DNA of 62,325 bases from Caulochytrium protostelioides (Eukaryota; Chytridiomycota; Caulochytriomycetes; Caulochytriales; Caulochytriaceae): NCBI GenBank assembly GCA_003615045.1, contig ML014220.1, positions 1 through 62,325 of the forward strand, in the 5' to 3' direction. Below are positions 1 to 43,949 of the stretch, in pieces (position 1 is the stretch's first letter; the number at the start of each line of letters is the position of its first letter). The position numbers were made by a program, and so were the translations under genes. A model generated the notes under the pieces. The model had not been told where the DNA came from. It saw only the letters and a program-made list of their open reading frames with translations, and searched no databases.

Positions 1-255
1 GAACCGTGATCCGAGGGTTGCTGGAGTCTGAAGCCACCAACGGCCATGAAGCTGTCCACAGCAAGTGGGTGAACCGCGATCTCCATGCCGCGTTGACCAT
101 CCGACGCTGTCTGGTCTGACCGGACAGACCGACAACGCTGTGCCGCAACCCCAGGCCAGGCCGCCTGCAGCCCGTGGTCGGCAAGCTCACCCGACGATGC
201 ACCGAATGTGGGACTGCCTCGGTGGGGGATCTCTGGGGGGGCACCACGGAGGGCA
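1..255 (+). mobile_element. Fanzor/TnpB-like element, degraded 3' end (copy A)
   Basis: Reading from about base 15, the frame gives a GLLESEATNGH segment and then VNRDLHAALTIRRCLV followed by a stop at 117-119. NRDL-x-AAL-x-IRR is the shape of the third RuvC motif (NRDxNAAxNI) that closes TnpB and its eukaryotic relatives, the Fanzors. The zinc-ribbon cysteines normally just upstream are missing, and Thr stands where Asn is usual (ALTI versus ALNI). Bases 120-255 remain similar to the second copy at 15566-15789, including an identical block around 169-199. A shifted frame in copy A keeps the peptide AARGRQAHPTM seen in copy B, so copy A probably carries a frameshift. The 5' part of the element lies outside the window. 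This is a relic, not an active gene. The motif and the similarity are seen directly; assignment to Fanzor rather than another TnpB-like group is inference. Confidence 0.55.
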
Positions 256-1141
256 TATCGTGAGGTACCGGAAAGGGCCTATATATACGACCGCGTTCAG
301 GCAAAATATTGACGCTACGCCATACCGTGCCACGCCATACCGTGCCACGCCATACTGTGCCACGCCATACCAGGCCATACACCGCCACCACAACGGCGGT
401 GGCGGCGGCGAGAGGGTCCCTCCCCCGGTCGACGGCTTGGGGGAGGGAGAGGGAGAGGGAGCGATCGGATCCGTCCTCGGGGGTCCCCGGCCACCGTGGC
501 GGGTGCGGGTACGCCCTGAGGGATGCGCGTGAAGCATGCTAACGTCAGGGGCCCGTCGCTTGTCATTCCCCGCCGTGGCCTCTCGATCCTTTTTGTGGAG
601 CCACGGCGGTGACGGCGGCCGCTCGGGAGAATGGTCTTGGACGGACTGCCCCTCCCGAGATCGGAACGGCGAGTGCACAGGCGCTGCGGTACGTCGATGC
701 GGGGTCTCGATCGCGCCTCGCCTTCCTGTGATCCGTGCTTCATACCGCCTCCACGCGGCCGCGCTTCTGCTTGTTGTTTCTCTTTTTTTTTTTTTTTTTT
801 CTCGAGAATCGGAGTGACGCGCGTGGGCGCGCACCTCCTGGAGAGAGAGCTCCTCCTCCCCCCATTTTGTTCTTGCCGCGATCGCTTCCTTGTTGCCGAC
901 CGCTCTGCGTACCGTTGGATGGCCTTTGCCTGGGGGGGAAGGTCGTTCACGGCGCGCAGATCGGCTCGGCCGGCCTTCCTGATCCTTCGCGGCCTTCCCG
1001 ACCCCGCCGGGCGTGTTCGGGACGGGAACGAAACCTATTGGATCCCACCGTCGTCTGGGCCCGGGCGCGCCACGTGCGAGGCTCGCCGCGCGGCGCCGGT
1101 CGTCCCCGTGACCGCGTGCCCCGTCGCGGTGGGCGCTGGCC
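256..1141. other. Intergenic region upstream of the sugar transporter
   Basis: No recognisable protein gene. It holds the 15-bp repeat, an isolated TATA-like stretch near 279-288, a purine-rich run near 440-460 and a poly-T tract of about 19 bases near 782-800. Open frames exist on both strands, but they are low-complexity Arg/Pro-rich translations without a family signature. The right half should contain the transporter promoter and 5' UTR, but no element can be named with confidence. Confidence 0.5.
319..391. repeat. 15-bp tandem repeat (CATACCGTGCCACGC-like)
   Basis: About four and a half imperfect units of cataccgtgccacgc follow the Fanzor-like tail. Variants (catactgtgcc, cataccaggcc) show decay. 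No gene covers it. Similar CATGC/GGCAT short repeats recur at 14725-14749 and 45491-45532. Confidence 0.8.
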
Positions 1142-3940
1142 ATGGACGCGTCGGCGTCCGCGGCGCTGGGCGATGCCGCTGGGCCTCGGCCATCGCGTCG
1201 TGGCGGCTGCTTACCGGTCGGCGACCGTCCCGCGGCCGCCCCCGATCGCCCGCGCCGCCGTGACGCCGTGGCGGCGGCCGCGGCCGCGGCCGCAGCGCTG
1301 CGACCGGCGATGGCGGGGCTGTTCAGCCCGAAGGCCGAGGCGGGCTCGCCTGCGGCGTCGCCCCCAGGGCCCGGGCTGACGGCGTCGCTCGCGTGGGATG
1401 GCTCGTCCGCGTCCGCGTCCGCGTCGTCGCGGTCGTCACCGTCGCGGTCGCGGTCGCTGTCGCTGGCCTCGTCCGGACCCGACGCCGACGGGCCGCCCGA
1501 CTTCGCGGACTTCTCCCAATTCGCGCATTGGGCCCACGACGACAGCCCGCCGTCGTCCGTGAGCGACGCGACGTGCCGTCAGCCGGTGCGCGAGGCCCTC
1601 GGGCGTTGCCAGGGCGGCGAGAGCGACGCGCAGGGCCGCCGCGACGTCGTGGACACGGCGAAGGCCGAGGACCGGGCAGAGGACCATGGCGGCGGCGGGG
1701 GCCCCGGCGAGCCCGACCGCTCTGGCCGGACTCCGCGTACGACCGACCCCCTCTGTGCTCGCCCCATCTCCGCCTCCGATCATGGAGATCTCCGTGGCCG
1801 CGACGACGATCTCGACCTCGACCTCGATCTCGACCTCGACGTCGACCGAGACCACGGGGAGCAAGTGGCGCTCGCCCGCCGTGACGGGGAGCCCGCCGGG
1901 TTCGACGCAGACGGGAGCGACGCCGGACGTCATGGCGGCCGCGGCGGCCGCGAGCTCTCGCTGCTGCGCCTCATCCTGCTGACCATCTCCCTGGCCGGCA
2001 TGCAGTTCACGTGGACGGTGGAGCTGTCCTACGGCACCCCCTACCTGCTCTCCCTTGGCCTGCCGGCGTGGGGCATGGCCCTCGTCTGGCTGGCCGGACC
2101 CCTCTCGGGGCTCTTTATCCAGCCGCTCGTGGGCGTGCTCTCGGATCACTCCACGCACTGGCTCGGCCGCCGCCGACCCTTCATGATCGGCGCGGGGTTG
2201 CTCGTCGTTCTCAGCATGGTCGGCATCGCCGACAGCCGCGGCATCGCCGCGATGCTGACGCCGCTGCGGGGACCCCCGCGGGGCACCGACCCCAGCCTCG
2301 GTGGCATGGGCGTTGCGGGCGATCTGACCCACATGGCCGACGGCGCCGACGGCGCGGATGCCTTGCTTCGCCGCGTCACCATCGCGGTTGCCGTGCTCAG
2401 CTTTTACTGCTTGGACTTCAGCGTGAACGCTGTCCAAGCCTCCTGCCGTGCCCTCATTGTCGACATCACGCCGGCCCACCAGCAGGGTCTCGCCAGCGCG
2501 TGGGCCGCCCGAATGATCGGCATCGGCAACGTACTCGGTTACGCCGCCGGTTACGTGGATCTGACCCAGCTCTGGCTGGCCGGCGCGGGCGTTTCGCAGC
2601 TGAAAGCGCTCTGCCTAATTGCTATCCTGTTCTTTGTCGCCACCGTCGCGCTGACCTGCGTCACCGTTACCGAGACGCCGCTGCGCCACTCCCATGCTCA
2701 TGCTAACGGTGACGGCGACGGCGACAACGACGGCGATGGGGATGGCGAGCCGCGGCCGCGACAGACCCGGCGCCAAGCCATCACGGCGCCCTTTGTGCGC
2801 ATCTGGGATGCCATCGGGCAGCTGCCGCAGCCCATCCAGTGCATCTGCAACACCCAGCTGTGGTCGTGGATGGCGTGGTTTCCCTTCCTCTTCTATGCGA
2901 CGGCGTGGGTCGGCCTCCAGTACGACCACGACCCGCGCGTCCAGCAGGTCCGCGCCGCGCTCGCCGTGGCCACGAGCGCGACCCCGACGGACGGGGAGCC
3001 GGGCGTCTCCGTCGAGGGCACGCGCGCGGGCGCGCTGGCTTTTCTGCTGTACTCTCTCATCTCGCTCGCCACGGGGTTTGCATTGCCTATGATCGCGGCC
3101 ATGGGCCGCGCGCTGATGCCTGCGTCGTCCCTGTCGTCCACCATGCTAGCGCCCGCCGCCTCCCCATGGGGCGCCCCGGCGACCGAGGCCCCCGAGCCGC
3201 ATGCCGGTCGCCGTGCCGCCGCGTGGCGCGCGTGGAGCGCGGCGCAGCTCACGATGCCGGCGCTCTGGGCGCACGCGCATTTCCTCTTTGCCGCGATGCT
3301 ACTGCTCACCCTGCTTGCGGAGAACGTTTTGCCGTTTGCCACGGCAATCGTCGCCGTCATCGGTATCTCTTGGGGCACGTGCCAGTGGGTCCCGTTCAGT
3401 CTGATCGGCGAGTATGTGAGCGCGCAGGAAACGGCGTTGCACGCGTCGTCTTCGGTATCGTTATCGACGCCGGCGGCGTCGACGGCGGCAGTCTCGGCAT
3501 CGACGTCTACAGCGGCGTTGGGGTCCGCACGGCCATCAGTTTCCGCGGCGGGGCCGCCCTCGGCCACCTCGCATGCGTCGCACCATGCCGCGCTCGTGGC
3601 CTACACATCACTGCCCTCGCCCCACCCCGACGATGTGACGAGTGAGGGCCACGTGACGCTGACGCTTGCGTCGCCGCGTGAACGATTGATGGCGGCGCGC
3701 GCGCCGCCACGCACCCCGACCCTCAGTGCCGGCATGGTCCTCGGCATCCACAACATCTATATTGTGCTGCCGCAGTTCGCGAGCACCCTGCTGTCGACCC
3801 TCGTCTTTGCCTTGCATGCACGGCTCGCCGATCCGAGCGATCCCAACCGAGATCCCTTCGGTTGGGTTTTGCGCTGCGCCGCTATTTTCGCCGTGATGGC
3901 CGCGCTGGCCGCCTACCATGTGCCACGCATGGTCACTTGA
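1142..3940 (+). CDS. SUT/SLC45-type sugar transporter (GPH family, major facilitator)
   Basis: A 932-residue membrane protein of the sucrose/alpha-glucoside-H+ symporter family (plant SUT, fission yeast Sut1, animal SLC45), expected to import disaccharide or glucose with protons at the plasma membrane. Residues 1-270 are a hydrophilic, low-complexity extension with an Asp-Leu run near 223-233. The first membrane helix begins near 274. The family loop between helices 2 and 3 reads SDHSTHWLGRRRPF (about 334-347). Further signatures are the segments ISWGTCQWVPFSLIGEY, and GMVLGIHNIYIVLPQ near the C-terminus, the latter typical of helix 11. A Ser/Thr/Ala-rich loop separates them. About twelve helices can be counted. 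The first ATG is used; the Met at residue 57 (base 1310) is an alternative start. The stop lies 204 bp from the converging gene, across an AT-rich gap with tatacaaatatata near 4009. Substrate is not readable from sequence. Confidence 0.85.
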   Translation: MDASASAALGDAAGPRPSRRGGCLPVGDRPAAAPDRPRRRDAVAAAAAAAAALRPAMAGLFSPKAEAGSPAASPPGPGLTASLAWDGSSASASASSRSSPSRSRSLSLASSGPDADGPPDFADFSQFAHWAHDDSPPSSVSDATCRQPVREALGRCQGGESDAQGRRDVVDTAKAEDRAEDHGGGGGPGEPDRSGRTPRTTDPLCARPISASDHGDLRGRDDDLDLDLDLDLDVDRDHGEQVALARRDGEPAGFDADGSDAGRHGGRGGRELSLLRLILLTISLAGMQFTWTVELSYGTPYLLSLGLPAWGMALVWLAGPLSGLFIQPLVGVLSDHSTHWLGRRRPFMIGAGLLVVLSMVGIADSRGIAAMLTPLRGPPRGTDPSLGGMGVAGDLTHMADGADGADALLRRVTIAVAVLSFYCLDFSVNAVQASCRALIVDITPAHQQGLASAWAARMIGIGNVLGYAAGYVDLTQLWLAGAGVSQLKALCLIAILFFVATVALTCVTVTETPLRHSHAHANGDGDGDNDGDGDGEPRPRQTRRQAITAPFVRIWDAIGQLPQPIQCICNTQLWSWMAWFPFLFYATAWVGLQYDHDPRVQQVRAALAVATSATPTDGEPGVSVEGTRAGALAFLLYSLISLATGFALPMIAAMGRALMPASSLSSTMLAPAASPWGAPATEAPEPHAGRRAAAWRAWSAAQLTMPALWAHAHFLFAAMLLLTLLAENVLPFATAIVAVIGISWGTCQWVPFSLIGEYVSAQETALHASSSVSLSTPAASTAAVSASTSTAALGSARPSVSAAGPPSATSHASHHAALVAYTSLPSPHPDDVTSEGHVTLTLASPRERLMAARAPPRTPTLSAGMVLGIHNIYIVLPQFASTLLSTLVFALHARLADPSDPNRDPFGWVLRCAAIFAVMAALAAYHVPRMVT

Positions 3941-15443: not shown

Positions 15444-15469
15444 TGCTGTATCCCAATCGGGATACAGCA
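15444..15469. repeat. Perfect inverted repeat (11-bp stem, 4-nt loop)
   Basis: tgctgtatccc and its exact reverse complement gggatacagca are separated by aatc. The hairpin lies about 100 bp upstream of the second Fanzor-like tail. It could be part of that element or an unrelated palindrome; the sequence alone does not decide. Confidence 0.8.
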
Positions 15470-15543: not shown

Positions 15544-15564
15544 GGTCCCAGGTCCCAGGTCCCA
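15544..15564. repeat. 7-bp tandem repeat (GGTCCCA x3)
   Basis: Three exact units of ggtccca directly precede the point where similarity between the two Fanzor-like tails becomes visible. Confidence 0.85.
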
Positions 15565-15565
15565 G

Positions 15566-15789
15566 GATTGCTGTGGTGTGATGCCACCAACGACAACATT
15601 GTGAACCGCGATCTCAAGGCCGCATTGAACATCCGACGCGGTCTGACCTTAACCGTCAGACCGGTAGCGCTGTGCCGCAAACCCTCTGCAGCCCGTGGTC
15701 GGCAAGCTCACCCGACGATGAACCGAATGCCCTACTGCCTCCGTGGAGGACCTCTGGAGACACCAAGGAGGATATGGTGTTCGTGGTAG
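15566..15789 (+). mobile_element. Fanzor/TnpB-like element, degraded 3' end (copy B)
   Basis: One open frame from 15568 to the stop at 15787-15789 reads MLWCDATND, then NIVNRDLKAALNIRR, then a tail containing RPVALCRK, AARGRQAHPTMNRM and YCLRGGPLE. NRDLKAALNI fits the terminal RuvC-III motif of TnpB/Fanzor nucleases, with the catalytic Asp inside NRD. One cysteine (WCD) survives where a zinc ribbon would be expected. Upstream, no frame shows RuvC-I, RuvC-II or the helical part, so only the 3' end persists. The DNA matches copy A at 1-255 on the same strand, through and past the motif. In TnpB/Fanzor elements the guide RNA derives from the 3' end of the gene and adjacent DNA, so bases about 15660-15790 are a candidate remnant of it; that is inference. 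The gene is non-functional as seen. Confidence 0.6.
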
Positions 15790-17076
15790 GTCGTCTCAGG
15801 GAGAATCTGTATGCCATCAGGCCATAAATCAGGCCCCTATCGCATGACAGAGAGGGCTGCGTGCACATGGGTCCCCACGGCAACCGGCCTGACAAGTTGT
15901 GCCAGCCCTCCCTTAGCACCACCCTCCTTCCGCGCCCGCGCTAGCGCGTCCGTGATTGTATCTAAGCCGCCTTAGCTCTGCTTGCGTCCGCCCGTGCATG
16001 GCCTACGCCGAATTTGACTCGGACATAACAAAGAGGCGGTGACATGCAACAAGCACAGCGTGTCGTTTCTCCCGACGAAACTGCAATCAAACGCTGAGCT
16101 GATGCTTCAACATCACGCTTCGATCGACTGCGATGGATGTGCGCATTCGTAACCAGCGCGAGGGCCATGGCGGTTGGCCGGGGAACCCCGTCATCGTGGC
16201 GTATTTGGGACTGCAATGATCCTCCGCTAAGCCGACCTTCATCATCCCTGCAGTCTGCCACTCGGGTCGATTCAGGCATGGATGCTGACGAAGGCTATGG
16301 CCATGGTTCCCATAAGAGATAATCAAAAAACGCAGAGACCGCGGAACATTTGATTTCCCCCAGTGACCCAGACACAGAAAAAATAAAAAAGAAAGACAAA
16401 AGAGCGGAACGCGTTCACGGTCGCGATACCCTAGGGCCCACGCCGGGGCCCCCGTATCATGGGCCCCCCATTGCATCCTTCATCTTGGAGGTGCCAGAGC
16501 ATGGCCAAATTATCATCGCCCACGGCGGCGCATGCCCCAGCCACAGCCGACGATGCGCCTTTGCAGCGGCGAGCGCTTGCCGGGAGGCCGCCTTCATTGC
16601 TGGAGCCATGCTCAGTCGAGTCGGCGAGCCAAGGTCCTGTCCAGTCTCCTCACCGCGTAGCTACGCTCTGCATAAGCCTCTGGAGGCAGGCCAGGAGCGC
16701 CTTCTCGATCACCTTTGAAATCCGGCCGAGCGCTGATTTTTGGCCTTGCACGATGGCCCCGTGCCGAGACAACCGAGACGGTCCAGATGGCTTGACGTGG
16801 CGGGGAGGCCGCGAGCTCCACATCACGGGACGGAGCGTGCCGCGGAGGTCCACAACGAGTTTCAAAAAAGCCGGGCACGCTTGTCACGCGCGACCGATGC
16901 CCTGCACGGCATCGCGTCACTGCTGGGCGATGCGCGGCGAGTGGGGTGTGCTTTTGAGCCAAGATGCAGGGGGCGGCGTGGAGTGCGGAGAGCTTAGGGA
17001 AAAATATGAATAAACTTTAAATTGAGGCACGATGACGGAGCGGACCCAGAAAACCATGAAAAAGAAGCTTTCAGGC
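15790..17076. other. Intergenic region between the Fanzor-like tail and the CH-domain gene
   Basis: No confident gene. The AT content rises near 16320-16420 and near 17000. A minus-strand frame at 16650-16865 has a short stretch (ISKVIEKALL) reminiscent of a LINE reverse transcriptase, but it is too little to call. The right end should hold the 3' UTR of the minus-strand CH-domain gene. Confidence 0.4.
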
Positions 17077-20000
17077 TCAGGCTGACGCGACTGAAGCATT
17101 GGTCTCTGACGGCACCGCCACCGCGGCCTCGGCGGGGTCGTTGGCAGCAGGGTCGTTTGCCGGGCCCGTTGGGTCGTGGGCATCAACAACGACACTGGCA
17201 GCGGTATCGGCGACGGCCGCGAGACGGCTCGCCAGAAACGTCGTCGAGCCGGCTTCGATCTGGCCGACGACATCCTGAATTTCATGCTTGATCTGGACGA
17301 GGAAGGCGACGAGTTGGGCGCTGTCCTCGTCGCCCTTGCATTGCAGGAGGCTCGACAGGCTCGGAGCAAGTGTCTGCGCCGCGCGCGCGAGCGGCGTCGT
17401 CGCCACCTGGCTTGCGCTCAGGCGGTGCGCCGCGCTGCCTTCATCAAGCGCTTCCAGGCTCTGAATCTGGAGGGGCGGCGATCCCGTCGACGCAAGACGG
17501 TCTCGGCGGGGGCGGATCTCCTGATGCTCCTGATGCTCGGGAGATGCGACGCTGCCATCTATATCCTCCGTATTGGCGTCCTGACCCTCGCTCTGATCCG
17601 CCTCCGTGGCTGACGGGTCGTGCTCATGGCGCGCCTGCACGATGCCGCGGGAGGGCGCCGAGCCGGAGGACTGACGCGGTGGCGCGACCGTGCTCGACAG
17701 GTGGGTGCGGTGGTGAGGAGGCATGACTGCGCCACGCACGGGCTGCGCGCACAGGGCGCACACCGCGGTCGCGGCGGCCGGCGGCACCAGCGCACCGCTG
17801 CTGAGGCGTGACGGGCCAGCATACCGCATGTTCTGCACCCAGTCGCGCAGTTCACCATGCAGACGGGACTGGATCTGCTTGAGAGCGAGCTGGTCTTTCA
17901 CGTCGCTCAGTTCAGCTTCGGCGCGCCACTGGTCCTGGCGCGCCGTCTGGACGTGCTCGACCAACCGCTTGTTCTCAAGGGTCAGCTGCTTGATCTGCTC
18001 ACGCAGCGATTGATGCTCGGCCTCCGCCTCCTCGGCATAGCGCGACGAGGCCACGAGACTGGTCTCCCAGTCAGTGATCAGACGGCGCGACTGGCCCTGT
18101 AGCTTGACATAAGCTTCATGGAGGCGCTCGACCATCAGTTGGTCGTACTGGCCGTGGGCGAGGCCTTCGTTTAAGCTGCCGATGTCGAAGTCGCTGCCGT
18201 TCGTCATGAAAGAGGCGCGCATCCACCAGTCCGAGTCACTTGAAAGGCGTGAATGGAACGGAATCGCCGACAGCGACCGCGTCATCTCGCTCATCGACGA
18301 CGGTAGGCGATGCGATACGCGATCCAGGGGCCGCACCAGATCCACGCACTGGTCGCGACCCTCGTCCGCCGCCGGCTGCCCCGACGCCCCGAGCGCCTCG
18401 ATCAGCATCGGCTCGCTCGCTGCAACGCCGGCGCCGCCGCCAACACCGCTGCTGCTGTCGCTCTTCTGATGACGCATGGCCGACGAGGAGGACGACGAGG
18501 GCCGCACCGTCTCGGCATCGATGCTGGTGACATGGTGGGTGCGGCGGTCGCGGCGCATCGTAGCGTCCGCCACATCAGCATCACCCGCCTCGCCAGGGGC
18601 ACCCGTCGATGCCACACCCGCCTCGGCCGCCTCATCGACAATCGCGCTGACGTCGATGTTGTACGTGACTGGGCCGATGGCATCGGACGCAGCGTCCGTC
18701 CCAGCGGCTGATGTCTCACCACGGGGCAACGAAGCGCGATCAGGGATGCCCCCGTCGGCGTCCTTGGCGTTCTTGGCGTTCTCGACGTTCTCGACGTTCT
18801 CGACGTTCTCGACGTTCTCGACGTTCTCGACGTTCTCGACGTTCTCGACGTTTTCGGCGTTCTCGGCGTTCTCAGCGTCCTCGACATCATGGGTCCAGAT
18901 CGCAAGTCCTTCAGTGGCGTCTGCGACATCACATCGCGCGAGGGCATCGGAGACTGGAGGCGTGCGCGCGGCACAGGGAAGCGTCGCCGTAGCGTCCGCT
19001 GGCGCATCGGTTCCACCGACTTGGCCATCTTGCGCATCCACCGAAGGCCCGCAGGCCTCGGTTGTCGCCGACCCCGCAGACGAACCATCGGCCGACGCCG
19101 CTATCGTCGTCTCACGCGCCAGCTCCGCGTTGACGATCCGCTGAGAAGCAGCGTCCGCGTCCGCGCCCGCGTCCAGCATCGGCGTCATCGAGGATGTGCC
19201 CGTCGCAGCCGCCGGCTCGGAGGTGGTCGCCGCCGTCTCTGCCAGCACCGGCACCGACGCCGCGGGTCCGGCGATGCCGGCAGAGGGACGGGAGGACGCG
19301 TCGTCGGCCATGGCCATCGCCGTCGCGATCTCCGTCTCGTCTGCCATGTTAATGTCGACATCGCGGCCCGCGACGGCATCGCGCATCGGCAGCAGCGAGC
19401 CAACGACCTTGCGGGGCCGCTGCTGGTCCAGACTCTGCGCGGCCTCGGTTTCCTTGGCGACCCAGGCGCTATAGAGGATGGTGAGGAAGCCGAGGCACAT
19501 CTTTTTGTTACCGCGGGCGAGGTCGCGGGCCGTCGCATACTGGCGGCACCCGAGGGTGATAGCGTTGTCGGTAACGCGCTCGGCACGCGTGAGCCAGTCG
19601 CGCAGCGTCAGGATTGGCGCGGCCGGGAACACGCCGTTCGAAATGTAGTCGAGGGCGACGGCAAACAGCACACAGTCGCGGAGGTCCGAGGCCAGGTTCG
19701 TGATGTGCGTCCGCACCGGGTACACGACCGCGGTCGCTGGGTCGTCGTCGCTGCCCAGCGGCTGCGACGTGCCCGCAACCGTCGCCAACACAGTCGACTG
19801 CGCCGCGTGGAGGACCTCGTTGCCCCAGGCCAGCAGCACGCGCTCGTACTCGGGCACGGCGGGCACCGTGGAGTTCTGTCGGTACAGAATCGGCGTGCGC
19901 AGGGCTTTCCCCTCGATTTTGGAGCCGTCCACCGCGCCCCGCGGCCGCGACGCCGCGGCCACGGTTGACGCTTCCGTGATCGGCGCCGACGCAGGGGAAT

Positions 20001-36401: not shown

Positions 36402-39400
36402 TCAGAAGGTGAGGAGATCGAGCGCGCGGACCAGGCGCTGGGTGGCCGGCCGCTGCGCCTGCGTCTTGCCGCGCACATAGAAGACGGGGCAGTCGCGGTT
36501 GGCGCAGGCCGGGGCGGTCGGGGCGGCTGCGACGCCGGCGCAGGCGCTGCAGACGGCGCTGCAGACGCGGTCACGGCGCTGGAACGCCGCAATCTGCCCC
36601 GCGAGGGCCGCGACGGTCGGTGCGCGGTGACCCGGGTCGCGGCACGCGTCGCAGAGCACCGCGGGCGGCACGGCGTCGTGCATCCGGGCGCGCGGGCGGA
36701 AGGCCATGCCCGTGCGGCGCTGGCACACGACGCAGTGCGCGCTCGCATAGTAATGGTCGAGCGCAAGCATCCGCGACCCGCGATTAGGGCCGCCGCGGCC
36801 GCGCGTCCCGGAGCCGGAGCCCCACGCGTGGATCGCGGACGGCGAGGCGGCCGTCGCTGCCGACGCGCCGGCGGCGCCGAGCCGGAGACCGGTCTGGAGG
36901 CGCTGCTGCTTGGGCATGTCGCGGAACCAGGCGTCGAGGTCGACGCCAACGAGGTGGAGCACGCGGCCGAGGGCCGGGATGATCTGCTTAGTGATGTAGT
37001 AGCTGCCGTGCAGCCGCAGCGACGGGTCGTGCACGAGCGCCATGGGCGAGACGACGAGGTCCATCAGGCGGCTGCCCGGGCCGCCGTACACGACCACGTA
37101 GGGCACGCGCTCGCCATACTGCGGCTGGACGCGGCGGTCGCGCTGCATCTGCTGGCCGGCCACAATCGCGCCGGGCGGCGGGGGCCGGTCCGCCGAGTAG
37201 GTGCCGAGCTTGACTTCCTTCGCGATCACAAAGTCCTGGACCGAGCACCGCCCGAGCATCAGCTTGGCCCACTGCCGCGTCAGGTAGCGTCGGATGAGGG
37301 ACAGGTCCTGGGTGCGGAAGAGGAGCTTCAGACAGACTTCCATGCTTTTGGCCACCACGGGGCAGTTATCGCGACGGACCACTTCGATGCCCTTCGCGTC
37401 GAACGTCGGCTCGCGCTGGTCCTTGAACTCGAACATGTTGCCCACATAGCGTTTCTTGGCCAGCAGCACGGAGGGCAGATATACTTTCTCGAACTTGAGC
37501 TTGATCACGCCTGTGCCACCCGGGCGGTTGGTCGCGGTGATGCGGTTGACCATCTCCGTCCCGATCTGGAAGGCATGGTCCTTGCTGCGGCCCGGCAGAT
37601 AGACAAACAAGCTGTCGGTGTCCCCGTAGACGACCCGCGCCTGCCACGCGGGCTCGCGGTGGATGAGGTCGATCGCATGCTCGAGGATGGAGCGGCCGGT
37701 CTGGACGATGGCGTCGGCGATCTCGGCGCAGGGCATGCGGCCCGAGTAGCTCGCGCCCGCGTAGCCGTAGGTCACGTTCGCGAGCAGCTTCAGGCTGAGC
37801 TGCCGCGCATTGAGGATGCGCGACAGGCCGGGCTGGTCTTTGTAGCGCTTCATACTGTTCTTGACCATGACACGCGTCGCGAGCAGCTCGGAGAGCATGC
37901 GGCCGAGCACGCCCGTGCGCAGGTGCGGACGCAGAAAGGCGACGCCGTTCGGCGAAATCGTGATGGACGCTTTCCCGTCGGGGTCGTGTTGGAGCAGTTG
38001 CGCCAGCAGCGCCGTGTCGGGACGATACCCGGGCACGGCGCCCAGCTGGGCGGGCGGGTCAGCCCCGACGGCGGCGACGCGGCCCAGGCACGTGGAGTAG
38101 CAGTAGTTGTAGGTAATCATGACGGACGGGTAGAGGCTCTGGAAGTCGAGGACGAGCAGGGGACTCGCATAGAACCCGGCGGCGGGCTCCATGATGAGGG
38201 GCAGGCACTCGGGCGCGCGCATGCGCTTCACGTCGTCGCGGCTCGGGCTCGCGAGCATGAAGTTCTCGGGGCGGCAGATGCGCGCCATCACGCTCTCGAC
38301 TTTATACTGCGAGCCGCGCGAGATGACGGAGAAGAAGTCGACGCCATAGACGCGGGCAAACTCCGACGTGCGGGCGATCAGCTGGGTCTGGTCCAAGAGA
38401 GCGATGACCCACTGCGTGCGGGCCACGTAGTAGGCGGCCGTCTGCCACGCAGTCGCGGCGCCGCCGGCCCACCAGGCCGTCAGGCGACGCGCCGTGTAGT
38501 GCGGCACCCGGAGCCGCAGCACCTCCCAGACGGCGTTCTCGAGCGTGTATGACGTCAAGGTCAGCTCTGAGCGCATGAGCCGCCACACGTTGAGGAACAT
38601 GCGGCCGGTCGTCTCCAGCGCCGCCAGCCGCCGTTGCAGGCGGCCCTGCGGCCCGCCGGTCGTCGGCGAGGCGGTGGCGACGGGGAGCGGCTCGCGTGCG
38701 TCGCGGATCCGCCCGATGAGCGTGCACAGGTGGCGGCCGTTGAGGTGCTTCAGCCGGTCCGCGAGGTACCCGAACGATGCCGCATGCAGCTCATACCCCG
38801 TCAGGATGTCCGGGTCCATCGCCAGCACGTACCCCATGAAGGTATGGAACAGCTCCAGCTCGCTGTCGACCCACGTCCACCGGCACGACGGCACGGCTCT
38901 CTGGATGCCCGTCGCAACGACGTCCGCTCCAGCTCCGGCTGCGCCGCCGACGCCGACGCCGACGCCCGAGGGGCGTACGGCAATGACCCCGACATGGTAC
39001 CCGGGCCGGCGGCCGTTGGTCGGAAAGCGGTGCGGCTCGTCGCTGTGCACGCAGTAGAAGACGCTCTCGACGGGGTCGGTCTGCGGGTCCGGCAGCAAGT
39101 CCTCGCGGCTCCGTGCGTGGACCTCGACGCTCAGGATCCGTAAGAAATCCGTCGGCACCACCGCGGGTGGCTTAGACGCGAGGTTCCGCTTCGGCTTCGC
39201 TTTTGGTGGCGGCGGGCGGGGATCGACATAGACGGCCGCACGTGGCGTCGGGCCTTCGATCTGCGAAGCGAGCGGGCCCGCACGCGGCGCGGCCGGGCTT
39301 TGGCTGGATGCCGCCGACGCGGTCGTCTGTGCCACCTCCCTGGCGACGGCGGCGCGGGTGGGCGGCGCCCCCGTAAGCGTCCAGTACATACAGGGGGCGC

Positions 39401-42400
39401 ACGGCTCGGCCCGAGGCCGCGGCGGCTGGAGCAGCGGCTCGCTGGCTTCATGGGAACGACGCGACCGCGGTCGCTGCGGCCATGGCGCCCACACGGCGGC
39501 TGGCGTCTCCGTCTGGAGCTGCGCGTCGATCAGCGTCCACGCGGCACGTGGTGTGGGCATGGTCCGCGTCGTCGCTGTCAGCGGCGCCGGTTCGCCGTCG
39601 TCGCGTGCGTGCTGGCCCCACGTGGGCAGACGGTAGCGCGCCGGATCGCCATGAAGCGTATACGCGACGCCAGCAAAGACCCGCGCGGGGCGCAGCGACT
39701 CGCGCAACACGTCGCCATACGCCGAGTAGAAGGGTTCCTTGTAGACCCGGGACGGACGGCTCCCGGTCCTGAGCGCTTCATCGAGCGCGCGCCGCGTGGG
39801 CGGTGGTGCTGGATGGACCTGATACCGGGGCCGGCGTGGCCGTGGCAGCGGTGGCGACGGCGACGGTTGCGATGGTGGCAACGGCGATGGCGACGCCATT
39901 GCCATGTCCAAGCCGCTGCCACCGCTGCCGTCATCGACGTCCACGCCATCCAGGGAATCATGCTGATCGGGTGAGGGCGAGGGCGCCTGCGTCGGAGGAA
40001 CGAAGGCCGGCGATCCACGGAAATGCAGTGCTCGCCGCGCCGTCGGAGGCGGCCAGAGCGCGTCCTGCGTGGCGTCTCCCGAGGGAGATCGCTCGACCGA
40101 CGTCGAGCTGACGGTGAACCTGTCCTCGGACGGTGGCGCGGCCATCATCCGCGGCGGCGGCAGCGGCGGCGGCGAGACGTCGCCCGGCGAGCCGAACAGG
40201 GCGTCTGCTGATGGCAGCGTCAACGACGACCGCGCGGCGGCGGCGGCGGGCGGCGGCGCGCCCCGCGGGTCGCGCGCGAACGGGGGCGGCGACGGCGACG
40301 GCGCCCGCCGCTCATGACGGCGTGTGACGGACGGCGGCTGCCACCGGCGGCGGCGTCGATCGCTGACGGGCGAGACGGCCGCGCGATCGGACGGCGGGAG
40401 GGCGACGGACCGCAGAGGCGGAGCGGGTGGAGGGGGCGGAGCCGGCGGGACCCGCGGGACCGGCGAGGGCGGCTGCCGCGACGCACGGCCGAGCATCTTG
40501 TACCGCTCGTGCGCCGGGATCAGGGGTGCTGGACGGCGCGGCGGCGTCGGGCTGACACTGGAGTCGCGCGACCGATCGCGGACGGGGGAGCGGTCCGCGT
40601 CCGCGTCCACACGCGACAGCGCCCACGGCCGCCGTGCCGCAGTCAGCCATCCGTTCGCCCGCACCGGCGTCCGGACGTCCAGCCCGCGCGCCGCGACCAT
40701 CGCTTCGGCGTCGCGGTCCGGGAAGGTCGGGAGATCCAGCGACGACGACAGCGTCTGCGGCGCCCGGTTGCCATCACGGTGATCGGCGGCGGCATCGCGC
40801 ATCGCATCGCTGGTCAGCAGCATCGCGTCCGAGGCGTCCGAGGCGACGGCGTCGCTCCCGCACTCGCTCGGGTCGCGGTACGACGCAAACGGTTCGCCGC
40901 CGGGATCAGCCGCGGCGTCCGACGAAAGGGCGGCGCGGCGGCGCGGCGGCGGTGTCGCCGGGATCGCGGCGCCGAAGCGCTCGGGCCGCCGCTGCGTTTC
41001 CGGAACCATCCACACGCCCTCCATCGGCAGCGCGAGGTCCACGCTGGACGCCGGGTTCGTCGCGATGGGTGACGCCGATGCCGATGCCGCGAGGCGGTGG
41101 ATCAGCCGGCCGGCCGCCTCGGGGTCCTGGTCGTCTTCTGAGACCGACACGATGATGGACACCGCTTCGCTGGCGTCCGTCTCGTCGCCCGCGTCGCCGT
41201 CGCCCGTGTCGCCGTGGCCAAGCCCATCGTTTTGTGGGATTGTCCGCGGCGCCTGATGCTTCCAGACCCGCGGCTGCGGCATGGTCGTTGCGACGGCGGG
41301 CGGCCGCATGGGCGGCGTGGTGGCCGGCGGCAACGGCGCTTCCGCGTCGAGCGGGGAGGGCGGCCCTTCCATCCACAGATCGTCGAGGTTCAAACCGGCG
41401 GCGACGGCGTCCTCAAGCTCGCGCTGGAAAGCGGCTTCGATCGCTTCCAAGTCGTCCATCACGGCCGGCGTCAGCTCGACCGTGTCGTCGGGCACCGCCG
41501 GCGGGCACTGACTGAGCCGCGGCTCGAGGGCATCGTCGTCAGCATCGTCGCCAGCAATAGCGTCGTCAGCGGTATCCTCGTCAGCATCGTCTGCAGCATC
41601 GTCGACCGTCACGTCAGCAAACTCGTCCGCAATCTCGTGGTCAGCATCGTGACCGTCTGCACCGTCGTCGGCCACGTTCATTGGCCGTGTCACGATCGGA
41701 TCACCCCGCATGGGCACGGCGTCCGGACCACCCGTATCCCACACCTTCGGACCCGGCGGCCGCGGGGAGGCGGGCGAATTGGTCGCCGACTCGCGGGCCA
41801 TCCAGTCCAGAATCGACAACGCCTCGTCGGTCACGGCCGCGGCGCCACCGGCGTCCGAGCGGCCGTCCGGGGTCGGTGCCGCCACAGCCACTTGGGAGGG
41901 TAGCCGGCTAAGCGCGTCTTGCGTAAAGAGCTCATCAATCATCTGCTCATCGAGCGGGGCGTCCGGCCGCTGCGACAGGTCGGGGCTCGCGTCGATGCGT
42001 GGCGGCAGCCCGAGCGCCGCGTCGGCCGTCCAGCACGCCGCGACGCGGGCGAGCGCCGCATCCGTATGCTCGTACAGCGCCGAGAGAGCGTCGAAGGCCG
42101 TCATGATGGACGGATTCGCCAGCAGCGGGTCTTCAGCGGCGGCGTGGGCGGCGGCGGGCGCCGCCCCGAGGGCGCCCGTGATTGTTGTGGGATCACGATA
42201 GCGCGGCGTCGGCGGCGTCGGCGGCGCCCCGATGCCATCGCGGATAGCCTGGACATGGCGCGGGCGGATGCGCCAGTCCTGCAACGGCGGCGGCGGCGGC
42301 CACGGGGCGTCGGCCGGCGGGCTCGGCATGACCTCGTGCTGCATCTCGACCAGCATGGCCTCGAGCTCCGCGTCCGGGATACTGGGCAGCGACGCCTGCG

Positions 42401-43949
42401 GTGTGCGGTTGGGCGTCCGGCTCGACGAGCGCGTCGGCGTCGCCGCTCGCGATGCATGGCGCCGGCGGCACCGGCGCAGCGCTTCTTCGTGCCACGCGAG
42501 CGCCATCGAGGGCACGAGCGGCGGCGGCGCGGCCGCCAGGGGCGCCGCGGCCGCGGGCGGCGGAAAGACCACGAGCGGCTGCGTCGCGCGCTCGCGGAGC
42601 CGCCGGAAGTTGCGCACGTCGCCGGCCCACGTGTCGGCCTCGAGCTCCGAGTGGCTCACGCGCGCCAGCCCGCCGGCCGCCGGCCACACGAGCTCGGGGG
42701 GGATCGAGCCGGCATGCAGGACCGGGTGGTGCTGCGACAGCCACGACCGGAAGCTCTCCGGGGAGTCGTTGATGGGTGAAGCCCCATGGACGGCCCCGGC
42801 GGCGTCCGCCTGCCCGGCGGCCGCCGTCCCTGGCGCCGTCGCCGTCCAATAGGCCGTGGCTGGCATCACCGAGTAGTCGGCCGTCATCAACCGCGTCGGT
42901 CCCAGTGGGTCAGGGGGATGGATGGGCGTGCGGAAGCGGAGATCGGCGAGGTCGATGGTGTCCATCCCGTAGAGCGAGTGGTCGATAAAGAACTGGTGCA
43001 GGAAGGGCAGATGCGCGTCGTAGGCCGGGAACGCTTGGCCGAGCACGGCGCCCGAGGCCAGGATGCGGACGGCGCGGGTGACGAGGCGTGGGTTGAACAG
43101 GTAGATCTTGAGGAACGGCTGGTAACCTCGGTGGAACCCATAGAAGGGGATCCCTTTACACAGCAAGATCGACGCGAGGTAGTGCGGACGCGACGCGGAC
43201 GGCGTCCAGGTCGATCGTCCACGGCCTGGATACCCGGACCACGGCTGCTGCGGCGGCGGCATCATGTGAGGCGCAGGATTGGAGATGGTCCCCGTCTTGA
43301 CGCGCTGCATCGCGTCCTGCGCGACATCCAGCGCGGCCGTGAGCGCCCGTCCGAATTGGTAGATGTAGGCCTGCACGCCGTCCGGCAGCCGCGGCCGCCG
43401 GCGCGGAGGGTGGGCGCCGTGGCGGCGGCGGCGGCGGCGGGGGTCTGCGCCATCGAGCATGTCCGCATCGAGCGGTGGGCCGCGGTAGTCCACGTAGAAG
43501 TACGGCAGCGCGTGGTGCACGTGGAGACAAATCTTCTGGGCGCGCTCGGTGACGCCGAAGATGCGGATGACCGGCACGCGGGGCGTCGGCGACCAGACGC
43601 CGGCGGCGGCGCGGGCGGGCGGCGCGTGGAGGTCGAGCGGCGCGGCGTCCGCGGCGCGGAAGTTCATGCACCAGCGACGGTCGGCGTGCGCGTGCGGGAC
43701 CTCGAGCTCGTAGTCGACCGTGACGATGCGCACCGCCAGAACGCAAAGCGGGTCTGCGCCTGCCGTCCCTGCGAGCGCGCTGTCGGGGTCGCCCTCGGGA
43801 TCGCCGCCAGGATCGCCCCCGGAGGGCGGCGGCCGTGGCCCGTCATGGGCAGGATGCCCAGAAGCATCGTGCCGACCGGTCGTCTCGCCAGGATCGCTGC
43901 TGACGTGACCCGCATCATGGCGATCGACCCGAGCGAGCGAGCGCTTCAT
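36402..43949 (-). CDS. REV3: DNA polymerase zeta catalytic subunit Rev3
   Basis: A 2515-residue B-family polymerase for translesion synthesis. The N-terminus has the Rev3-type domain (LCVLAVRIVTVDYELEVP, PVIRIFGVTERAQKICLHVH, LPYFYVDYRGPP). A large disordered, Pro/Ser/Asp-rich middle runs from about 300 to 1650. The exonuclease-like region has LSVEVHARSREDLLPDPQTD and MDPDILTGYE (about 1710). Polymerase motif A is VLDFQSLYPSVMITYN (about 1932), motif B LSLKLLANVTYGYAGASYSG, and motif C VVYGDTDSLFVY (about 2105); KKRYVGNMFE follows. All catalytic Asp residues are present. The C-terminus carries two cysteine clusters, CVVCQRR to CDAC, and CSAC to CANRDCPVFYVRGK, the second being the Fe-S site that binds the Pol31/Pol32 subunits with Rev7. 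It is longer than yeast Rev3 (about 1500) and nearer animal size. The start is the only ATG before the N-terminal domain. No intron is needed. Confidence 0.95.
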   Translation of the reverse strand: MKRSLARVDRHDAGHVSSDPGETTGRHDASGHPAHDGPRPPPSGGDPGGDPEGDPDSALAGTAGADPLCVLAVRIVTVDYELEVPHAHADRRWCMNFRAADAAPLDLHAPPARAAAGVWSPTPRVPVIRIFGVTERAQKICLHVHHALPYFYVDYRGPPLDADMLDGADPRRRRRRHGAHPPRRRPRLPDGVQAYIYQFGRALTAALDVAQDAMQRVKTGTISNPAPHMMPPPQQPWSGYPGRGRSTWTPSASRPHYLASILLCKGIPFYGFHRGYQPFLKIYLFNPRLVTRAVRILASGAVLGQAFPAYDAHLPFLHQFFIDHSLYGMDTIDLADLRFRTPIHPPDPLGPTRLMTADYSVMPATAYWTATAPGTAAAGQADAAGAVHGASPINDSPESFRSWLSQHHPVLHAGSIPPELVWPAAGGLARVSHSELEADTWAGDVRNFRRLRERATQPLVVFPPPAAAAPLAAAPPPLVPSMALAWHEEALRRCRRRHASRAATPTRSSSRTPNRTPQASLPSIPDAELEAMLVEMQHEVMPSPPADAPWPPPPPLQDWRIRPRHVQAIRDGIGAPPTPPTPRYRDPTTITGALGAAPAAAHAAAEDPLLANPSIMTAFDALSALYEHTDAALARVAACWTADAALGLPPRIDASPDLSQRPDAPLDEQMIDELFTQDALSRLPSQVAVAAPTPDGRSDAGGAAAVTDEALSILDWMARESATNSPASPRPPGPKVWDTGGPDAVPMRGDPIVTRPMNVADDGADGHDADHEIADEFADVTVDDAADDADEDTADDAIAGDDADDDALEPRLSQCPPAVPDDTVELTPAVMDDLEAIEAAFQRELEDAVAAGLNLDDLWMEGPPSPLDAEAPLPPATTPPMRPPAVATTMPQPRVWKHQAPRTIPQNDGLGHGDTGDGDAGDETDASEAVSIIVSVSEDDQDPEAAGRLIHRLAASASASPIATNPASSVDLALPMEGVWMVPETQRRPERFGAAIPATPPPRRRAALSSDAAADPGGEPFASYRDPSECGSDAVASDASDAMLLTSDAMRDAAADHRDGNRAPQTLSSSLDLPTFPDRDAEAMVAARGLDVRTPVRANGWLTAARRPWALSRVDADADRSPVRDRSRDSSVSPTPPRRPAPLIPAHERYKMLGRASRQPPSPVPRVPPAPPPPPAPPLRSVALPPSDRAAVSPVSDRRRRRWQPPSVTRRHERRAPSPSPPPFARDPRGAPPPAAAAARSSLTLPSADALFGSPGDVSPPPLPPPRMMAAPPSEDRFTVSSTSVERSPSGDATQDALWPPPTARRALHFRGSPAFVPPTQAPSPSPDQHDSLDGVDVDDGSGGSGLDMAMASPSPLPPSQPSPSPPLPRPRRPRYQVHPAPPPTRRALDEALRTGSRPSRVYKEPFYSAYGDVLRESLRPARVFAGVAYTLHGDPARYRLPTWGQHARDDGEPAPLTATTRTMPTPRAAWTLIDAQLQTETPAAVWAPWPQRPRSRRSHEASEPLLQPPRPRAEPCAPCMYWTLTGAPPTRAAVAREVAQTTASAASSQSPAAPRAGPLASQIEGPTPRAAVYVDPRPPPPKAKPKRNLASKPPAVVPTDFLRILSVEVHARSREDLLPDPQTDPVESVFYCVHSDEPHRFPTNGRRPGYHVGVIAVRPSGVGVGVGGAAGAGADVVATGIQRAVPSCRWTWVDSELELFHTFMGYVLAMDPDILTGYELHAASFGYLADRLKHLNGRHLCTLIGRIRDAREPLPVATASPTTGGPQGRLQRRLAALETTGRMFLNVWRLMRSELTLTSYTLENAVWEVLRLRVPHYTARRLTAWWAGGAATAWQTAAYYVARTQWVIALLDQTQLIARTSEFARVYGVDFFSVISRGSQYKVESVMARICRPENFMLASPSRDDVKRMRAPECLPLIMEPAAGFYASPLLVLDFQSLYPSVMITYNYCYSTCLGRVAAVGADPPAQLGAVPGYRPDTALLAQLLQHDPDGKASITISPNGVAFLRPHLRTGVLGRMLSELLATRVMVKNSMKRYKDQPGLSRILNARQLSLKLLANVTYGYAGASYSGRMPCAEIADAIVQTGRSILEHAIDLIHREPAWQARVVYGDTDSLFVYLPGRSKDHAFQIGTEMVNRITATNRPGGTGVIKLKFEKVYLPSVLLAKKRYVGNMFEFKDQREPTFDAKGIEVVRRDNCPVVAKSMEVCLKLLFRTQDLSLIRRYLTRQWAKLMLGRCSVQDFVIAKEVKLGTYSADRPPPPGAIVAGQQMQRDRRVQPQYGERVPYVVVYGGPGSRLMDLVVSPMALVHDPSLRLHGSYYITKQIIPALGRVLHLVGVDLDAWFRDMPKQQRLQTGLRLGAAGASAATAASPSAIHAWGSGSGTRGRGGPNRGSRMLALDHYYASAHCVVCQRRTGMAFRPRARMHDAVPPAVLCDACRDPGHRAPTVAALAGQIAAFQRRDRVCSAVCSACAGVAAAPTAPACANRDCPVFYVRGKTQAQRPATQRLVRALDLLTF

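Follow-up and report, generated by a model that had tools for sequence, protein, structure and literature searches.

Fanzors are eukaryotic RNA-guided nucleases. We describe two relics that are, with high probability, 3′ ends of Fanzor (Fanzor1-type) elements, in a 62,325-nucleotide stretch of the fungus Caulochytrium protostelioides (contig ML014220.1 of assembly GCA_003615045.1; hereafter the window), and the family to which they belong. Among the closest described elements are CRe-1, CRe-2 and CRe-3 of the green alga Chlamydomonas reinhardtii. These are Fanzor1 coding elements borne by Helitron2, whose copies are often 5′-truncated and whose intact 3′ end is over-abundant, a pattern explained by replication from the 3′ end; about 10–70% of copies have target-site duplications, and insertion follows T-rich words (PMC3627910). 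For SPu-1/SpuFz1 of the chytrid Spizellomyces punctatus intact copies are described; its inverted repeats are 33 bp long, its TA duplications are putative, and its zinc finger is of the CCCC type (PMC3627910, PMC10432273). Between RuvC-II and RuvC-III the published Fanzor/TnpB motif places a C4 zinc finger (PMC3627910), and PMC10711439 gives the finger for 'many' Fanzors, without stating it for all.

The present family resembles the CRe type in its Fanzor1 coding element and in its truncated copies with an over-abundant 3′ end, and volvocine green algae hold relatives of its protein. It differs in its fungal host, in that neither duplications nor T-rich insertion words were detected, and in its incomplete zinc finger, the last comparison being with the published motif rather than with the CRe proteins. 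Unlike SPu-1, it shows no clear duplications, no intact copy among the loci read and no first CxxC, and its 5′ end, and with it any inverted repeat, is undefined.

A six-frame scan of the window with a loose RuvC-III pattern found two places only, both on the forward strand. At 69–107 lies the motif proper VNRDLHAALTIRR, within the tail VNRDLHAALTIRRCLV (69–119) that closes with the stop TGA at 117–119; at 15601–15639 lies VNRDLKAALNIRR, within the tail VNRDLKAALNIRRGLT (15601–15648). Both sites named in a preliminary description of this DNA are thus real, although its start for the latter, 15604, was 3 bases late. Its statement that the two share a strand and similarity outside the motif also holds: identity is 78% in an alignment of 194 bp (E 2e-40), the likeness reaching to about 262 and 15779. 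In an nhmmer search with a 1731-position element profile, the match at 15554–15793 (envelope 15554–15814) covers model positions 1427–1696, that is, the last coding part and the 3′ non-coding end of a 5′-truncated Fanzor relic. Its stop-free part at 15568–15698, LLWC...VNRDLKAALNIRR...RPVALCR, aligns with the Fanzor C-terminus and is comparable to RGLLWC..VNRDLNAALNIRR..RP in our alignment A1. The other relic (envelope 1–313, forward strand) matches model 1424–1726 at 1–308, and a separate tail profile at 46–290; since the window spans contig C110 from end to end, one of 337 in the 20.9 Mb assembly, this relic is cut at the contig start. Both are dead, 5′-truncated copies of one old high-copy transposable element, and they themselves encode no working protein. 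Upstream of the relic at 15554 is a self-complementary stretch of 26 bp (92%) at 15444–15469.

Genome searches bear out the expectation of an element family. The 224-base segment 15566–15789 gave 491 candidates as a DNA query (40 places scored) and a diverged tail 187 (40 scored); the RuvC-I-side protein query gave 283 and the RuvC-II-side query 368, with 150 scored in each case. Merged by strand and distance, the 380 listed matches and the contig-start copy come to at least 287 distinct places (145 forward, 142 reverse) on at least 171 contigs. This count is a lower bound, and 76 of these places were read in detail. On contig C253, copies at 914–1135 (forward) and 18401–18622 (reverse) are 97% alike over 384 bp and lie towards the two contig ends, with RuvC-I parts near both; an inverted duplication is one possible reading of the pair, an effect of the assembly another. 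At four further loci (L061, L055, L045 and L053) tails lie close together, repeated or in opposite orientation, suggesting nested or paired insertions.

Related copies carry upstream the RuvC-I (DPG) and RuvC-II (Glu) motifs that the preliminary description proposed to look for. Judged from its sequence, the element protein is a RuvC nuclease of the TnpB/Cas12 kind, with a predicted D-E-D triad made of DPG, the Glu of VDEFRT and RD. Of 42 copies examined for the RuvC-I Asp, 10 do not reach the site and 1 has a gap; 27 of the other 31 keep the Asp, and DPG is complete in 21. The RuvC-II Glu, in its rearranged place (Ealt) beside the zinc-finger position, is kept in 42 of 50 (51 examined) and is invariant in alignment A1, and the RuvC-III Asp is kept in 46 of 53 (54 examined). 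One copy, L019, has the order and spacing D-X(125,275)-[TS][TS]-X-X ... RD, with DPG at 49–51, E212, TS at 215–216 and RD at 255–256.

In each of three coding segments, the copies differ most at codon position 3 (0.237, 0.261 and 0.224) and least at position 2 (0.171, 0.140 and 0.142); stops make up 42 of 4544, 4 of 2320 and 12 of 2006 codons, and median pairwise identity between copies is 0.80–0.82. Our reading of these figures is that the lineage was probably under coding selection during its spread and that the copies now are old pseudogenes. Among 74 loci with any segment, 49 have both RuvC-I and RuvC-III segments; seven of these, at five distinct places, are free of stops between the two matched parts. 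Three of the five match the RuvC-I segment only in part, L019 has a stop just upstream of its stop-free part, and L022 begins at model position 585. The suggestion of intact members elsewhere therefore found no backing: none of the five places has an intact N-terminal half, in a set drawn from the 76 loci read. In several copies (L021, L066, L012 and L051, not L019) repetitive sequence rich in proline is present before RuvC-I and in the interval from RuvC-II to RuvC-III; it looks like minisatellites expanding in the coding region.

Assignment to Fanzor1 is drawn from homology and fold. A profile built from relatives matches all three solved Fanzor1 proteins, the top structural match to the predicted fold of one copy is Fanzor, and in sequence and fold alike the closest structures are those of Fanzor1. 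The proposal of a TnpB/Fanzor-type RuvC-III is upheld by these matches, and the profile check went only partly its way. Pfam and NCBIfam scans recognised none of four translated copies, and the Protein Data Bank gave no match to the single L019 sequence. The Pfam family PF07282 (Cas12f1-like_TNB, OrfB zinc ribbon), which covers the same protein segment, was found in the genome only below its cut-off (best 20.8 bits versus 26.3). We think that both the low PF07282 scores and the silence of the Pfam and NCBIfam scans are due to the missing zinc finger. We keep the name Fanzor, as for a putative variant, on homology and predicted fold, which are directly supported, as are copy number, fixed 3′ and graded 5′ ends, decay, retention of the D-E-D residues in most readable copies and absence of the first CxxC from the copies and most relatives. 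One scan of viral contigs gave 19 stretches that fit a pattern, none of which encodes a relative by tblastn, a scan that possibly left out very near records.

The C4 zinc finger of the published motif is incomplete in the copies, and this counts against the Fanzor reading. Where the first CxxC is expected the copies read H-x-x-T, with H in 48 and T in 40 of the 49 having residues there (51 examined) and Cys at either position in none; of the second half, one Cys (LLWC) remains in 14 of 54 copies examined. The absence extends to relatives, 45 of 48 having no CxxC at that position. The three that have it (P0043–P0045) carry PF07282 as a precomputed domain; on rescanning, two were above the cut-off and P0045 just below. 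The 45 without it retain DPG in 26 cases, RD in 43 and all three motifs in 25; among those of at least 300 residues all three are present in 20 of 23, many of the others being short fragments. P0024 and P0034 are examples of uninterrupted relatives without the finger. In place of CxxC the proposed finger-less lineage would have an H- or D-containing loop, with D-E-D retained. In an unrooted 39-row tree whose bootstrap had not converged, a branch with support 92/92 has all three CxxC rows on the same side, and the rows nearest to them, P0018 and P0039, lack CxxC; the tree would allow a single loss of the zinc finger. Precomputed annotation gives P0005, P0007 and P0020 the Pfam domain PF26935, which was absent when P0005 and P0007 were rescanned. 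In the literature on the Fanzor zinc finger and RuvC, on Chlamydomonas and on chytrids, of which our coverage is incomplete, no account of a zinc-finger-less lineage was found.

The ends of the copies are unequal. In a sample of 30 loci taken by the element's middle part, the 3′ end was reached in 25 of the 28 judged, and an equal reach 5′ was seen in 9 of 30, the 5′ ends being scattered from model position 2 to 1030. The 3′ ends are A/T-rich: of 54 right ends, 27 have AATAT in their last part and 10 have CTCAATAT, and no A-run after the tail is longer than 7. Copies would have spread by a 3′-anchored process, most like that of the Helitron2-borne Fanzor1 families of Chlamydomonas. Two marks to be expected of such a process were not detected. 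Target-site duplications of at least 7 bases were found in 4 of 49 copies versus 4.6 expected from a re-paired control (at least 8 bases, 3 versus 1.3; at least 9, 0 versus 0.2), the 5′ boundary being set by the profile edge in 7 of the 49. T-rich insertion words precede 15 of 48 copies against a background of 12.4 (standard deviation 3.2), which is no preference. Helitron Rep (PF14214) had no match in the genome, the control genomes being silent as well. The copies in the first two tests are old and their junctions imprecise, and duplications and T-rich words may have decayed since insertion.

A constant A/T-rich 3′ end with 5′ ends at graded positions would also follow if a retroelement like a LINE (long interspersed nuclear element) had copied Fanzor transcripts from the 3′ end by target-primed reverse transcription, and the genome does have reverse transcriptases (19 matches). 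We consider this, the chief rival reading, unlikely. The duplications are not in clear excess, the A-runs are short, and the window's own reverse transcriptase belongs to the kind that bears RNase H. At 12 reverse transcriptase loci, moreover, the element profile matches only three (L079, L081 and L083) and the tail profile only L081, where the reverse transcriptase lies inside a Fanzor copy. A LINE as the source of the tail was rejected on that last point, the tail at L081 alone being there by nested insertion: a reverse transcriptase fragment lies within the Fanzor copy (985–2724 of this locus), which is split near model position 1074–1085.

Returning to a 3′-anchored spread of Fanzor copies, the element protein may have been RNA-guided, by analogy with known Fanzors. 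It would have bound RNA from the 3′ end of the element, made of the last codons and the 3′ non-coding part, with about 15 nucleotides of flanking DNA as the guide, as in SpuFz1; cutting of matching DNA by the RNA-bound protein would then have favoured retention or copying of the element. For this mode of working and the mode of spread taken jointly, we see the chances as evenly balanced.

A possible 3′ hairpin, a candidate guide-RNA or transposon-end structure in the place where a guide RNA would be expected, can be drawn by arm pairing on the forward strand of both relics, at 15738–15771 (arms 15738–15746 and 15763–15771) and at 217–252 (arms 217–225 and 244–252). Pairing was assessed in 48 of 49 tails (L007, near-identical to L006, was omitted), in the same alignment from which the hairpin had been picked by eye, so the assessment is not independent. 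Cells at the paired positions can pair in 82.0% of cases versus 33.2–51.1% when the arms are slid; the covariation score is 0.177 versus 0.123 in shuffles, none of the 500 reaching it, and does not rise above 0.108 when the arms are slid; and 20 cells show double changes versus 10.5 in shuffles. Most of the signal comes from two column pairs, CG/UA and GC/CG. Several controls tell against a conserved RNA structure. Sliding by +2 gives 21 double changes versus 20 unslid, and two of the five measures, the number of pairs with a double change and that of further pair types, do not go beyond the shuffles, 133 and 284 of 500 being at least equal to them. RNAalifold on the same tail alignment yields 2 pairs only, and six single tails are no more stable than their shuffles (z from −1.27 to 1.58); the hairpin at 15738–15771 is not significant as a single-sequence fold (z 0.08), and the minimum-energy fold of the sequence at 217–252 differs from the one drawn (z −1.27). 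The hairpin could equally be a transposon-end DNA hairpin or a subfamily structure.

The tails might instead have been kept as 'ghost' loci, which would still make guide RNAs for a Fanzor encoded elsewhere in this genome; such a role has been proposed for S. punctatus. Such loci are known from a chytrid (PMC10432273), first-look candidates here fall from 491 for the tail to 368 for RuvC-II and 283 for RuvC-I (queries that differ in kind and length), and a conserved hairpin is partly supported. We regard this as improbable: 5′ truncation alone explains the excess of tails, no intact partner protein was seen among the loci read, the profile match at 15554–15793 stops at model 1696, before the end of the element, and the median identity between copies suggests long decay. 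That the elements are relics of bacterial-type TnpB or of Fanzor2, instead of Fanzor1, is very improbable.

Relics of a large Fanzor family are of a kind already known; the zinc-finger-less lineage and the fungal 5′-truncated expansion are a variant of it. Tentatively, and with less confidence than in the joint mode of working and spread, we propose that a chytrid fungus, green algae and uncultured organisms share a Fanzor1 lineage which may work as an RNA-guided nuclease without the TNB zinc finger, and whose 3′-anchored, 5′-truncating spread would have left hundreds of guide-RNA-like ends in the fungus. This genome is a fungal case of 5′-truncated Fanzor spread, which to our knowledge is otherwise known only from Chlamydomonas. 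A lineage with the catalytic triad and no finger makes the need of the zinc finger for cutting testable. It would also be undercounted by zinc-ribbon-based searches, because here the Pfam model scores under its cut-off and the Fanzor regular expressions quoted in PMC10711439 require CxxC.

The neighbouring genes in the window include a sugar transporter at 1142–3940, closest to those of chytrid fungi (such as Batrachochytrium and Entophlyctis, 42–44%), and, on the reverse strand at 36402–43949, a very long single open frame for a REV3-like DNA polymerase zeta, in which family B polymerase domains are recognised. The reverse transcriptase lies at the contig end (61501–62220, reverse strand); it has RNase H domains and is probably from a long terminal repeat retrotransposon. 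Other genes, of ordinary kinds, include a BRCT protein, a kinase, a GATA factor and a calponin-homology protein.
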